DNA of 64,000 nucleotides from NCBI GenBank assembly GCA_029637525.1, contig CP072660.1, positions 1,761,612 through 1,825,611 of the forward strand. Direction: 5' to 3'. Within the stretch, counting starts at the first letter, position 1, and every line of letters starts with the position of its first letter. The notes beneath the pieces are model-generated. The model was not told the origin of the DNA, did not search any database, and saw only the letters and a program-made list of their open reading frames with translations. The translations under genes were made by a program, and so were the position numbers. Source of the DNA: Desulfurococcaceae archaeon MEX13E-LK6-19. GTDB lineage: Archaea > Thermoproteota > Thermoprotei_A > Sulfolobales > Desulfurococcaceae. Positions 51,616-59,215 of the stretch are shown here, in pieces.

Positions 51616-52488
51616 CTAGACAAGAATACTACGGAAGTTAATACTTGTATTGATTTTTACTAGGAGTTTCTCAACAATATCTATTACACCCTCGATCTCT
51701 TCTCTTAAATTATTGGCAAAACAAGATAAATACAATGGCACAGTCCCTCTCTTTAACCCTATATGGTCTCCAGCAAGTTTTAGAATTGAATAATCCATTA
51801 CTCGCTTGATTATTTTATTGATATCTCTATATATTGGATCTAGTGATCTAGCAAACATATCAATTGCTTCTAACGGGTTGTTGATACTTTTAATCTTTGA
51901 GACCCCGTTTCTTATTTGCTCAAAAATAGTCTCAAGTTCTAGAACACAGTTTTTCCCAGCAACGTAAATATTGCCATCAACCTCTATGGACTCACCACCA
52001 TAAATTATGGGAAGGAGAGTAAGTGTATTCTTTAAAGAAAGTTTACCTAGCGAACTATATAATGTTGCTATGGTATCTACGGCTTTTATACTAGAAAGAC
52101 CGTTGCCTGCTTGAGAGGATGCTGCCAATACCCCATATACAATTGTTTTCTCGGCAACAATATTAGATCCCATTACGCCACCAAGTACTATAGTGTTTTT
52201 AATGTTGATGAACATGCCTGGTTGAATAACTCCATTGATTATCATTAATCCTCCTTCTCCACTCTTGACGACAAGTTTATCATGAACACCTACATTTCCA
52301 TTAATAATGACTATACCGTTCAAATCTATGGTTATATTTTCGCCAAATAAATCACCATAGATGATAACTCCATCACCATTAATTACAATGCTTTCTTTGA
52401 GAATATCTCTCCGAACAATAGTCAATCTTTCAATCTTTTCTTCACCAAGAAAATCCCCGTGATTAAATAGCACTTCTCTATTACTCAA
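51616..52488 (-). CDS. Bactofilin-like beta-solenoid protein with alpha-helical C-terminal domain
   Basis: About 290 residues. The N-terminal ~150 residues are short repeats of the kind INGDGVIIYGDLFGENITI / IVIINGNVGVHDKLVV / LMIINGVIQPGMFI, that is beta strands with Gly/Asn turns at 15-20-residue intervals, as in bactofilins and other polymer-forming beta-solenoids. The last ~130 residues are predicted helix (LETIFEQIRNGVSKIK). No catalytic motif. Start is uncertain: TTG 52488 with GGTGG upstream is chosen; GTG 52497 is the longer option. It abuts the large coiled-coil gene upstream (stop and start adjacent), so the two form one operon. Confidence 0.5.
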   Translation of the reverse strand: MSNREVLFNHGDFLGEEKIERLTIVRRDILKESIVINGDGVIIYGDLFGENITIDLNGIVIINGNVGVHDKLVVKSGEGGLMIINGVIQPGMFINIKNTIVLGGVMGSNIVAEKTIVYGVLAASSQAGNGLSSIKAVDTIATLYSSLGKLSLKNTLTLLPIIYGGESIEVDGNIYVAGKNCVLELETIFEQIRNGVSKIKSINNPLEAIDMFARSLDPIYRDINKIIKRVMDYSILKLAGDHIGLKRGTVPLYLSCFANNLREEIEGVIDIVEKLLVKINTSINFRSILV

Positions 52489-52497
52489 TAAAACCAC

Positions 52498-54789
52498 CTA
52501 TTTGCACAATATTTTACCGTAATTTCTTAATAGAACCCATTTGAAAAAGATCCTATAAAGAAGGCCGTATCCAGATGTAGATTCAACTACACTTAAAATC
52601 TCTTTAACAACATCCTCATCAATACATTGCTCAGTAGTTTCATTAAATAACTTGTCTACATAATTTTTAATTAACTCTTCATCAGCAAGTTTATCTGTTT
52701 TATTACTCGATACTTCACTAAAGACCTTAGTTATTTCCCTGATTTCTCCAGCTTTTCCTCTCCTAATATTAGTTAGTATCACAACCCTATAAACAGGAAC
52801 ATAGAAAACTAGTGGTTCACCTAGAGGAACACTCGTCTCGAGACTAAAGTCGCTGAGTACTTTATCATCGTAATCTTTAAGGCTTTCAATATATTTCATT
52901 ATAGCATTTGATCTTTCCTGCAATTCATTAGTCAATTCAGTGATTAAATCACGAGCAATTATTATTTGATGATTAACTGAAAAGTTACCCATTATATTTA
53001 TTTGCTTACAGGAATCTTTAATCCTATTAACCCACTTACTATACCTGGTAAACCATGATAGATCAGTTTTTAGATCATCAACAACATCCTTATTAATAGT
53101 ATCTATTGTTTCAGCAATATTGTTAATTATTTTTTCCAAATGTTTTTTAAGCTTATTTATTCTATTAATAATGTTTCTTTTTGTACTATAATCTATTTCC
53201 ATTTCGCTTATTCGTTGACAAGAATCTTTTCGTTCGACAACTACTTGTTTCTCTACTACCTTACTCAATAATTTCTTGTTTTCACCACTAATTTCTTCAA
53301 TTATCTTCTTTACTAAAGCAAAGTCTCCTTCATCGATAGCTTTTTTGAACAACGGATAATACCAACAGATGTCATTCTTATGTTTTTCACAAGCATGCAG
53401 TTTATCTTCAATAATCCATGTACCCAAATACTCTAATGGGATTTTAATCTTGTTTATCTTTTTTATTTTGTCTACATACTCAATATTTAATGATTCAATA
53501 CAATCTTTAATAACGCTAAGCAATACGGGTTCAATTCTTTTCCCGTATTCTCTATATATGTGTCTTTCTTCATTCAAACAGAAGTAATTAACCGTCGATA
53601 TAGCTTGGTTAACTAGGTAGTTGTTTTTACTATCAACATACTCTATTACAGAATTGAGTTTAGGCTCTACTTCTAGCTTGTAGAGTTTCCTCCATGATGA
53701 TATGAATAAGCGCATGATCTTGGGTGTATTAATGGTTTCATCAACGCTATATTTATGCTCACAAACACAGCATTTACCAACATATTTTCCATTCACGTAA
53801 TCCTCTAATATAATCCATGGATAGTCGTGTACTCCATACTCTGTACGTGAGACAAGACAAACAGGACATACATGTCCCACAAACACTTCAGATAAATGAG
53901 CCATTAGTCTTGGAAAACATACAGCTAGATTGTTCACCCAGCTATAGTAATTACTAAAGCAGTTAGCTATTAAACTAGAATGTTTATTTATTTCTCCTAG
54001 CAATTTTGTTGACTTATCTAGTAAAGAGAAAACACTTTCTATCTTATTCTTAACGTCATTTATGTCGTCATTACTTACCGTAACCGCTTCCTTTGAAAAC
54101 TTATCATCCAGAATAATTTGTTTAAGACTTTCAAGAACTAGTTTCTTAATGTAAGGTTTAATCACTACTATTTTTACTTCTTTAACCTCAGGCTCGTTAA
54201 GCCTCTTGGTTATATTACTCAGTTTCTTTTGTATATCGTCTTCGAATTTTGTTAAGACGGTTTTTGTATCATTTTCGTCTTTCACTATAATGTACCTTGT
54301 TTCATTTACATCAAGTTTACCAGAAAAAACATCTGCGACAGTATTGGCAAGCCCTTCTATGTCATTCCTTATATCATTTACGTTACCTAAGTATTGTTCA
54401 CTAACAGTCTTTAAACTAATAACATTAGCATTACCGAGTACATCGTAAAGTATCATGTTGTTTTTGCTATGCGGAATAGGAATTCCTACAATAGGATAGT
54501 AGATACGCCTTAAACTAACTATTTTTACTCCCATATATAATGCCGTTACTAGTACAGCGATCCCTACTAGAAATATGTTTAGGAAAACAAGTATTCTATG
54601 TACTATACTAATTGGAATAAGGAATATCAAAAAAGAAAGCATAATCAATGCAATCGATATAATGAATCTTTTACGAAAAATCCTGTATTTATCATCAATT
54701 TTAATAATAATATCATCTACTAGATCCCTATATTCAGCATCCTCACTTGAGAGACGATAGTACTTTGTCAATCCTTTGTACACACCCAT
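52498..54789 (-). CDS. Large two-TM coiled-coil protein with a cysteine-pair zinc-ribbon-like motif
   Basis: 763 residues, not recognised. Two membrane segments near the N-terminus (about 42-62 and 66-86), then long charged helical stretches (about 160-230, 390-470 and 510-620), and between them a CPVC...CCVC zinc-ribbon-like motif at about residues 311-345. The C-terminal part (VFYVPVYRVVILTNI onward) looks globular. This is the layout of a membrane-anchored scaffold or sensor. Codon use is more AT-rich than in the enzymes nearby. Coupled to the bactofilin-like gene directly downstream; a shared cell envelope or cytoskeletal role is inference only. Confidence 0.55.
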   Translation of the reverse strand: MGVYKGLTKYYRLSSEDAEYRDLVDDIIIKIDDKYRIFRKRFIISIALIMLSFLIFLIPISIVHRILVFLNIFLVGIAVLVTALYMGVKIVSLRRIYYPIVGIPIPHSKNNMILYDVLGNANVISLKTVSEQYLGNVNDIRNDIEGLANTVADVFSGKLDVNETRYIIVKDENDTKTVLTKFEDDIQKKLSNITKRLNEPEVKEVKIVVIKPYIKKLVLESLKQIILDDKFSKEAVTVSNDDINDVKNKIESVFSLLDKSTKLLGEINKHSSLIANCFSNYYSWVNNLAVCFPRLMAHLSEVFVGHVCPVCLVSRTEYGVHDYPWIILEDYVNGKYVGKCCVCEHKYSVDETINTPKIMRLFISSWRKLYKLEVEPKLNSVIEYVDSKNNYLVNQAISTVNYFCLNEERHIYREYGKRIEPVLLSVIKDCIESLNIEYVDKIKKINKIKIPLEYLGTWIIEDKLHACEKHKNDICWYYPLFKKAIDEGDFALVKKIIEEISGENKKLLSKVVEKQVVVERKDSCQRISEMEIDYSTKRNIINRINKLKKHLEKIINNIAETIDTINKDVVDDLKTDLSWFTRYSKWVNRIKDSCKQINIMGNFSVNHQIIIARDLITELTNELQERSNAIMKYIESLKDYDDKVLSDFSLETSVPLGEPLVFYVPVYRVVILTNIRRGKAGEIREITKVFSEVSSNKTDKLADEELIKNYVDKLFNETTEQCIDEDVVKEILSVVESTSGYGLLYRIFFKWVLLRNYGKILCK

Positions 54790-54860
54790 AAGCTAAATAG
54801 GGCGTACTATTGTCCCAGCTAGAATATATTTTGTAATAACGATACTATATTAGCATTAAC

Positions 54861-54978: not shown

Positions 54979-56496
54979 ATGGTTATTGTTAGCATCACCC
55001 CCGAGATAGCTCTTGAAGAGTTCTATACGTATGCTGGCGGTTTAGGAGTACTTGAGGGAGACAAATTCTATACAGCTTCGCGTATGGGTCTAGAGTATAT
55101 TGTACTATCAATTTTCTATAGAAGAGGCTACGTAGATTACATTTTTGATGGAGAAAACCCTGTTCCAATGCCACAGAAACAACCATCTAAAATATGGAGA
55201 AGCCTTGTCGCAGGTGAAGAATTTACCATAAGCCTACGTGGAGAAGATGTCATAGTACGTCCTTGGATCTATGAACGAGGGTCTGCAAAAGCTGTATTGT
55301 TTGAGGCAACATGCCCAAAATGGGCAAGAGGGTTAACAGAACAAGTCTATATAGATAATAGTATTGAAGAACAGTTCCTGAGATACGCTTTCCTGGCGAA
55401 AGCTGCTGCAAAGTATATGAGAGACTACATTGGGTTAGAGAACATAGATGTAATAGACCTCCAAGAATCTCTTGTAGCACTAACAATACTAGCGTTACCG
55501 CTCGAGAATAGATACAGACTAGTAATACATACACCAGGCCCATGGGGCCACCCAGGATTCCCCGGAGATCTCATAACTAGAGAGTTCGGCGTTTTTCTTG
55601 GAGACTATGTTGTACTAACAGAAATGGCTCTGGAAAGAGTATCCAAGGCATTCACAGTTTCTAAGAAACACATGGATATAATGAAGAAAGTATTTCCTAG
55701 GTATGCAGACAAAATTACATGGGTTACAAATGGTATTGATATAGAGAGGTGGATGGATCCCGAGCTCTACAAATACTATAGAGAAAACAAATTGGATTTG
55801 GATACCATACGTGAAGTAAAGAACAAAAACAAGGATTCCCTTGAGAAGCTTGTTAAATCGTACAAAGAAAATGCTAGTCTTAAGGACAAGTTTGTTGTAG
55901 CGTGGGTTAGGAGATTATCGAGATATAAAAGACCATATTTTATTACGAGATTCATAGAAGAGAATCCTGATATAAGAGAAGTATTCTTTGTTCTCGGAGG
56001 AAAGCCTCATCCAAGAGATTCGGATGGACTAAACTATGCTAGAACATTTAGGAGGCTACATTTACGTTTATCCAACATAGTATACATCCATGACTATGAT
56101 GTTGGCAAGGCAAAAATTATCTTTAGAGGGTCACATATATTGCTATTCACTCCATTCAGTGGCTGGGAAGCATGCGGAACAAGCTATATGAAAGCAGGAG
56201 TGAATGCAACACCAGTCCTTTCAAGCCGTGATGGAGGCGCTATAGAAGTTATCAAAGACGGGGTAAATGGCTGGTTGTTTGGAATTGATTTGAGAGAATT
56301 CATTAATATATACAATGACCCTAAAGCTAAGGAGATTGATGAAAAAGACTACAATGAGTTTAAACAAAAACTCTTCAGTATACTAGATATGTACAATTCT
56401 GATCCACACAAATATGCTGAGATAAGTCTAGAAGCTGTAAAGACATTTACCCCTATTGTCGACATGACAAGAACACTTAAGCAATACTACATGTGA
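54979..56496 (+). CDS. Alpha-glucan phosphorylase (archaeal short form, GT35)
   Basis: 505 residues, shorter than classic glycogen phosphorylase, as in archaeal and thermophile TIGR02094-type enzymes. Begins MVIVSITPEIALEEFYTYAGGLGVLEGD (family opening, shown shortened), has WVRRLSRYKRPYFITRF, and the PLP-lysine block EACGTSYMKAGVNATPV that corresponds to EASGTSGMK of the family. Releases glucose 1-phosphate from alpha-1,4-glucan. A glycogen synthase (GT5) is an alternative because the two share folds, but the N-terminal GGLGVLEGD favours phosphorylase. The phosphohexomutase at 50.1 kb would use the product. Confidence 0.85.
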   Translation: MVIVSITPEIALEEFYTYAGGLGVLEGDKFYTASRMGLEYIVLSIFYRRGYVDYIFDGENPVPMPQKQPSKIWRSLVAGEEFTISLRGEDVIVRPWIYERGSAKAVLFEATCPKWARGLTEQVYIDNSIEEQFLRYAFLAKAAAKYMRDYIGLENIDVIDLQESLVALTILALPLENRYRLVIHTPGPWGHPGFPGDLITREFGVFLGDYVVLTEMALERVSKAFTVSKKHMDIMKKVFPRYADKITWVTNGIDIERWMDPELYKYYRENKLDLDTIREVKNKNKDSLEKLVKSYKENASLKDKFVVAWVRRLSRYKRPYFITRFIEENPDIREVFFVLGGKPHPRDSDGLNYARTFRRLHLRLSNIVYIHDYDVGKAKIIFRGSHILLFTPFSGWEACGTSYMKAGVNATPVLSSRDGGAIEVIKDGVNGWLFGIDLREFINIYNDPKAKEIDEKDYNEFKQKLFSILDMYNSDPHKYAEISLEAVKTFTPIVDMTRTLKQYYM

Positions 56497-57760: not shown

Positions 57761-58234
57761 TTATTTTCTCTTCTTGAATAGCTTCTTAAATAATCTTTTT
57801 ATATAATCCCAGAATGTAGTAATTTTTTCCTCCTTATAAGCAGTTTTTTCTCTAGTCTCTTTAAATAACTGCTCCTTTAGATAAACTGGCGGGGCACTAG
57901 GTGTCTCGACAATTAATTTCTTCTCACTACTGCACTCAAGAGTTGATAACCACTCTTCTATAACTACATAATGTTTTCTTAACGAAGGAAACCTAGGCGA
58001 CTTGGCTTGCGATAATACTATATCCTTATGGCAGGCCAAAGGCTGAAAAATATCGCTTAAGTAATCCAATAGCTCCCTTATCTTGGTATCATCAACATTT
58101 TCAACATAATCTTTGAACATATAAATCGCAGAGTCAAGTTTAATTAAATAGTAATCTATAGTCTTAGCAGTTGACAGACTCGCCTTCAACTCATTCTTAA
58201 TTTTCTCATATATGTACTCCATAATATTCACCAA
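57761..58234 (-). CDS. Hypothetical protein with basic C-terminal tail
   Basis: 157 residues, not recognised. Helical N-terminal two thirds with a His/Cys pair (LACHKDIVL), a proline-rich linker (ETPSAPPVYL) and a strongly basic amphipathic end (DYIKRLFKKLFKKRK) that might bind a membrane or nucleic acid. In size and composition it resembles archaeal Snf7/ESCRT-III-type helices only loosely; no motif supports that. It converges with the MntR-like gene. Confidence 0.5.
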   Translation of the reverse strand: MVNIMEYIYEKIKNELKASLSTAKTIDYYLIKLDSAIYMFKDYVENVDDTKIRELLDYLSDIFQPLACHKDIVLSQAKSPRFPSLRKHYVVIEEWLSTLECSSEKKLIVETPSAPPVYLKEQLFKETREKTAYKEEKITTFWDYIKRLFKKLFKKRK

Positions 58235-58510: not shown

Positions 58511-59215
58511 TTGAATAAAGTATACATCAGTATATTATCTATATTGTTGTTAACATCTATTGTATTATATTCTGTACAAGCATTAGTAGTGCCTGACTGG
58601 ATTCAAAAAGGATCATATCTAGTATATGACGTTATTAGGATAACTAGATTCTACGGAGTACCAGCCGGCAGTGCCTATGCATTGTATTTTAAGAATACCA
58701 CATACTGGGGAAGAATAAAATATGAAATAATTTCTCTCGATGAAAACGAGTTTAAAGTTCTTAGCATAGTTATTGACACTAATGATACTCTTGGCGAAGT
58801 ATTTAAGGTAGGTGAAAACACCACATTTACTATACCATATAATTCAAGTTTGAAGCAAGGTGTATCCATTTATATAAATCCCGAACTTCTGCCAGAGAAT
58901 AACGTCTATGTCAATAGTACTAGTGGCATAGACCCCTATGGGAGAATCTACAACTTCAGCATAGAAGCAAGATTCGACCCAGAGACAGGTATTCTTGAGC
59001 ATCTAGAAGCAACCTCAAGAATGACTGCTCAATTCGACGTGAATACTACAATAACTGGTATTACAATACTAATATTTGATCTCGTGGAAAAGAATAAACC
59101 CGAAAAAACTACAGATAGCTTCTTTTCCACTAACATGTGGCTATTTGCCGCCGGAGTACTAGTTTGTATAGCAGCTATAGCCATATACTTGGTGTACAAT
59201 AAAAACTGGTATTAG
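58511..59215 (+). CDS. Exported membrane-anchored protein of unknown function
   Basis: 234 residues: signal segment (about 4-24), an extracellular beta-rich domain with many N-glycosylation sequons (for example NTT, NSS, NST), and a C-terminal membrane anchor (about 208-230) with a short basic end. No family recognised; the surface domain is of the type seen in S-layer-associated archaeal proteins. TTG start. Confidence 0.6.
   Translation: MNKVYISILSILLLTSIVLYSVQALVVPDWIQKGSYLVYDVIRITRFYGVPAGSAYALYFKNTTYWGRIKYEIISLDENEFKVLSIVIDTNDTLGEVFKVGENTTFTIPYNSSLKQGVSIYINPELLPENNVYVNSTSGIDPYGRIYNFSIEARFDPETGILEHLEATSRMTAQFDVNTTITGITILIFDLVEKNKPEKTTDSFFSTNMWLFAAGVLVCIAAIAIYLVYNKNWY

Follow-up and report, generated by a model that had tools for sequence, protein, structure and literature searches.

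A cassette of three adjacent genes, termed here A, B and C, is present in two other genera of the family to which Desulfurococcaceae archaeon MEX13E-LK6-19 (G000) belongs; in that archaeon it takes the form of two abutting genes, AB and C. Here, we describe a 64,000 nt stretch of its DNA, referred to throughout as the window (GCA_029637525.1, CP072660.1, positions 1,761,612–1,825,611). Our preferred reading, to which we give somewhat less than an even chance, is that AB and C make up a membrane-tethered cytoplasmic solenoid scaffold, a function read from the features set out below.

Organization of the cassette

Both genes lie on the minus strand. AB (52498–54789; 763 aa) starts with ATG, and its TAG stop occupies 52498–52500; the open reading frame of the beta-repeat protein C (51616–52497; 293 aa, GTG start) begins directly after it with a gap of 0, as the initial annotation of two ORFs with adjoining stop and start had it. 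Translation of C probably begins at TTG 52488, nine bases inside the listed ORF, rather than at the GTG, because AGGTGG (52494–52499, minus strand), which overlaps the AB stop, resembles a Shine–Dalgarno sequence when set against the consensus; C would then have 290 aa. Upstream of AB, AAAATATATT (54823–54832, minus strand) lies 34–43 nt before the ATG and is a candidate TATA box, judged by the archaeal consensus. From this gene layout we infer that AB and C may be a single transcription and translation unit.

The loci of relatives are organized in a similar manner. A Desulfurococcales MAG (G001; JALVIT010000233.1, locus L009) has the order PP-loop ATPase–GT4–A–B–C, with proteins of 552 aa (A), 300 aa (B) and 263 aa (C) and 4-bp ATGA overlaps at both A/B and B/C. 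G014 (L006) has the same five genes, its contig ending after about 20 codons of C; GAGGTGATC lies over its B stop and is followed by GTG, the same layout as at the AB/C junction of the window. In G023, of the same genus as G014, the contig carries the ATPase, the GT4 gene and the first 128 codons of A before it ends. Since the G001 and G014 loci read A–B–C, the cassette consists in these two genera of three neighbouring genes, and the search for the pair in other archaea that had been proposed as a check finds it kept there in that order. Just downstream of C in G001, a signal-peptide-like ORF of at least 238 aa (1–714 of L009, minus strand) runs to the contig edge; it has no Pfam match.

Comparison of the window with its relatives demonstrates, at the level of sequence, the orthology of both A and C, and does so without circularity. 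A profile of two separate A proteins (P0003 and P0005, window excluded) matches AB over residues 20–424 with E 3.9e-9, and phmmer with the C protein of a relative (P0007) finds window C over residues 36–252 with E 4.8e-9, each against 2000 targets. As A and B are separate genes in the relatives, AB is probably an A–B fusion. A whole-length B profile made without the window does not place AB above shuffles, and the fusion reading therefore rests on gene order together with a test of the tail, for which an HMM was built from the last ~100 residues of B in two relatives, again excluding the window. This HMM predicts a B-like C-terminal domain at about residues 662–755 of AB (52525–52806, minus strand): none of 3000 shuffles scores as high, nor does any of 114 ends from other ORFs of the window, with a raw E of 0.083 for 3000 targets. 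The match of an earlier B profile on the window was discarded as circular, that profile including the window tail.

The membrane partner AB

A hydrophobic hairpin is found by hydropathy at about residues 42–92 of AB (54514–54666, minus strand) and in all three A proteins, AB counted. Its two segments (residues 42–60 and 66–84) have mean Kyte–Doolittle values of 2.93 and 2.84, and because basic residues flank it on both sides (KYRIFRKR and KIVSLRR), the positive-inside rule predicts that both ends of AB are probably cytoplasmic. Beyond the hairpin, AB consists of long helical stretches and a zinc-ribbon-like CxxC-x28-CxxC motif at residues 308–343 (53761–53868, minus strand), in which C308, C311, C340 and C343 are invariant in the alignment of three A proteins. 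The description of the partner as a two-TM coiled-coil protein bearing such a motif is thus upheld; the zinc ribbon is putative, the A protein P0005 giving only sub-threshold Pfam matches to zinc ribbons. The structure model of AB was too poor for use (pLDDT 41.7).

Predicted structure of C

Structure prediction of the repeat domain, also suggested at the outset, returned a solenoid. The AlphaFold2 model of C, built from a two-row alignment, has strands spanning residues 19–180 (51958–52443, minus strand), followed by helices that form a predicted tail of low confidence over residues 182–293 (51619–51954, minus strand). Mean pLDDT is 64.9 and pTM 0.67; pLDDT is about 80 over residues 21–130, lies between 74 and 88 in 10-residue blocks across residues 21–120, and falls below 50 from residue 234, while three of the five models average only 37–41. 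A beta-solenoid fold for C is accordingly a prediction that is supported but not proven.

Among the matches listed by VIA-align for this model, the best of low rmsd are parallel beta-helices at rmsd 2.6–3.5, for example 5nxk (Z 11.2, rmsd 2.6, 158 residues) and 4i84 (Z 11.9, rmsd 3.5, 165 residues); left-handed hexapeptide enzymes give similar Z but an rmsd of about 11. Since the model lies at rmsd ~3 from right-handed and ~11 from left-handed helices, the handedness of the matched PDB entries being our assumption, it suggests that the solenoid of C is right-handed. The lack of any bactofilin among the 50 VIA-align matches listed is uninformative. Foldseek with the C model found no PDB match at E <0.15, the bactofilin 6ria standing at rank 26 with E 1.7; against viral models the best E was 0.0057, at a low TM-score.

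A repeat is clearer in the relative than in the window. Autocorrelation of hydrophobic and Gly/Asn residues over residues 19–180 of window C peaks at lag 18, with p 0.09 over all lags and p 0.004 when restricted to lags 17/18, whereas P0007 has a clear 17-residue repeat (peak lag 17, 0/3000 shuffles). The restricted test is not specific, since p<0.01 is also reached by three of the 53 other ORFs of the window, a membrane protein among them.

The low-rmsd matches listed include PL3 pectate lyases, HxuA, SRRP and tapirins, and C might instead be a catalytic or carbohydrate-binding beta-helix, resembling a lyase or an adhesin, rather than a structural polymer. We regard this as very improbable: C is tightly coupled to a partner whose domains are predicted to lie in the cytoplasm; it contains no hydrophobic segment and, like B of the relatives, no transmembrane one; Foldseek E-values are 0.15 or worse; and having a beta-helix in common proves no function.

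Distribution and genomic context

Neither AB nor C passes any cut-off in Pfam and NCBIfam searches at E up to 10, in agreement with the initial annotation, which could name a family for neither, and A, B and C, as encoded singly in relatives, likewise pass no Pfam cut-off. PDB sequence searches with C, the relative's C and the A profile gave chance matches only.

The cassette is rare. The first 61 genomes searched gave matches to C in one genome besides that of the window, and to AB in two. Of 229 genomes of the class, five matched the A profile, which leaves four (4/229, three genera) with G034, a chance match, set aside, and two matched the C profile (2/229). In phylum samples of 398 genomes, the A profile matched three, one of these by chance, and the C profile matched eight at E ≤0.1, G000 alone being convincing. 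The figure of 4/229 excludes all rejected candidates: G034 (E 9.8e-4), whose locus L015 encodes a many-TM protein and others, none A-like; G442 (E 8.1e-5), where a 187-aa protein matches through its hydrophobic end; and, judged as a group, the seven other genomes with C matches at E ≤0.1, in which no match begins before profile position 161 and several contain stops. A collection of contigs from 84,980 species returned a single locus, that of G001. Because it is present in just 4/229 genomes of the class, the cassette is accessory and not core cell machinery.

GC content is 0.313 for AB and 0.346 for C against 0.398 for the window, in which the cassette lies between genes matched by Pfam as a phosphohexomutase and a phosphorylase/GT; its neighbours in relatives are different. 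These observations fit an accessory, possibly transferred set. Together with the sparse distribution they are what one would expect of accessory defence genes or mobile-element cargo, in which a membrane zinc-ribbon coiled-coil protein would be paired with a solenoid sensor or effector, passed from lineage to lineage and retained under virus pressure. This reading is nevertheless unlikely in our view. No effector domain, whether nuclease, NTPase or another, is recognized; no match to the cassette was found among the viral contigs searched, to AB or C among phage records, or to P0005 among plasmids; the GC content of the G001 copy is not markedly shifted (0.370 versus 0.386); and G001 and G014/G023 keep the same upstream partners, unlike drifting cargo. 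PADLOC gives weak matches in seven proteins, mostly to coiled coils (best LmuB, E 1.8e-5, 21.1 bits, in a coil of P0004), and none of them amounts to a match with the core protein of a known anti-phage system. PHROGs matches are also weak, the best (7.4e-5) being to the coil of a tape-measure protein.

The upstream partners bear on a further alternative. In G001, G014 and G023 a PP-loop (TtuA-like) ATPase gene, a GT4 gene and A follow one another, so that the cassette stands directly behind a glycosyltransferase gene, and in the window it is flanked by phosphohexomutase and phosphorylase/GT genes. It could thus be an envelope glycosylation factor, a membrane scaffold holding a glycosyltransferase, although this appears decidedly unlikely: a GT4 match occurs in 37 of 40 genomes of the family, mostly without the cassette, and is lacking at 1e-10 in the window genome itself, and 18 GT4 loci have other neighbours, with no A, B or C alongside at E 0.5. 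On account of these 18 loci, a meaningful link between GT4 and the cassette was dropped.

Further features of these neighbourhoods were recorded. Within the family, GT4 usually lies directly behind a predicted metallo-beta-lactamase-like protein (L051–L068; name read from sequence). The phosphorylase/GT gene of the window (54979–56496) is in many relatives divergent from genes that we take to be peptidase-like and PheT-like, an order that is broken in the window. A search for an empty site beside this gene, covering 14 loci, yields nothing because the phosphorylase/GT loci of relatives have other neighbours. Two window ORFs, at 57761–58234 (157 aa) and 58511–59215 (234 aa), have no Pfam match at 0.001.

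Relationship to bactofilins

The solenoid had been called bactofilin-like. The solenoid part of that claim agrees with the model, but membership of the bactofilins is not supported: by its sequence, C does not belong to them. PF04519 does not match window C in Pfam at E up to 10, nor anything in the window genome at E 0.1; hhalign of C with seven bactofilins of the same class gives a probability of 0.4 percent; and an HMM of class bactofilins gives E 68 for window C and E 0.068 for P0007, the latter equal to shuffles. Ordinary bactofilins, at the PF04519 cut-off, are present in 28 of the 226 genomes of the class, are about 215 aa long (L040, L101 and others), and are encoded at L040 and L101 by a separate gene in different surroundings, with no A or B alongside. 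Two cassette carriers, G001 and G014, also have one, so the cassette does not simply replace a bactofilin.

The expectation that archaeal bactofilins would be new is overtaken both by these 28 genomes and by the halofilins of Haloferax, which PMC12186497 describes as bactofilin homologues implicated in shape; an archaeal bactofilin is therefore not in itself new. We found no description in the open-access literature searched of crenarchaeal bactofilins or of the A/B/C cassette. Bactofilins are defined by a core of ~100 residues with disordered flanks (PMC12364344), and BacA is a right-handed beta-helix with ~16 residues per winding (PMC13005908). Given this architecture of BacA, C may, by analogy, work like a bactofilin without being one.

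A proposed membrane-tethered scaffold

In the scaffold reading, AB would be anchored in the cytoplasmic membrane through its N-terminal hairpin and would leave ~650 residues (the putative zinc ribbon, coiled coils and the B-like end domain) facing the cytoplasm. C would supply the solenoid units, which would stack by their ends or associate side by side as bactofilins do, and its helical tail or the coiled coil of AB would link the filament to the membrane. The AB fusion would fix a contact already existing between A and B. We infer that A, B and C may form a complex, that C may polymerize, and that the cassette may have a role in cell shape or in the placement of membrane machinery.

In favour of the scaffold are the overlapping or abutting A–B–C and AB–C layouts, the orthology of A and C, the B tail, the invariant cysteines, the hairpin, the lack of a transmembrane segment in C and in B of the relatives, and the solenoid model with its low-rmsd beta-helix matches; the 17-residue repeat of P0007, close to the winding reported for BacA (PMC13005908), is also counted for it. 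Against it stand the lack of a sequence link to any cytoskeletal family, the lack of a PDB match below 0.15 in Foldseek, the unusable AB model, the weak and non-specific periodicity of window C, the restriction to 4/229 genomes and the bactofilins of two carriers. It is doubtful that the cassette constitutes a new archaeal cytoskeletal system, that is, a solenoid polymer with no sequence kinship to bactofilins whose own transmembrane anchor, a zinc-ribbon coiled-coil protein, is encoded alongside it, in hyperthermophiles of which some also have an ordinary bactofilin. If true, Desulfurococcales would gain a dedicated membrane-linked scaffold of defined three-part composition, the natural A–B fusion would predict contacts between the parts, and there would be an entry to how these wall-less cells organize their membrane. 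Whatever the role, three protein families that pass under no family name are linked through gene order.

Comparison with known systems

The long form of SegB from Metallosphaera contains a crenarchaeal predicted beta-helix insert that is discussed as bactofilin-like in PMC12284271, and in this it resembles C; it differs, by the same account, in being a ribbon-helix-helix DNA-binding protein with 14-residue repeats and another gene setting. Halofilins are archaeal, like the cassette, and are implicated in shape, a role that the cassette may share; the window genome, by contrast, has no PF04519 match at E 0.1. The bactofilins of Thermoprotei belong to the same class and sometimes to the same genome (G001, G014) but, unlike C, are encoded elsewhere by a separate gene without A or B as neighbour (L040, L101). 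Bactofilins in general (BacA, CcmA; PF04519/DUF583) have in common with C, which is predicted to be a cytoplasmic beta-solenoid, their short windings (17 residues in P0007, ~16 in BacA) and a likely linkage to the membrane. C differs from them in lacking a sequence match, in the length of its solenoid, ~160 residues, which a helical tail is predicted to follow, and in being encoded together with its own transmembrane partner gene.
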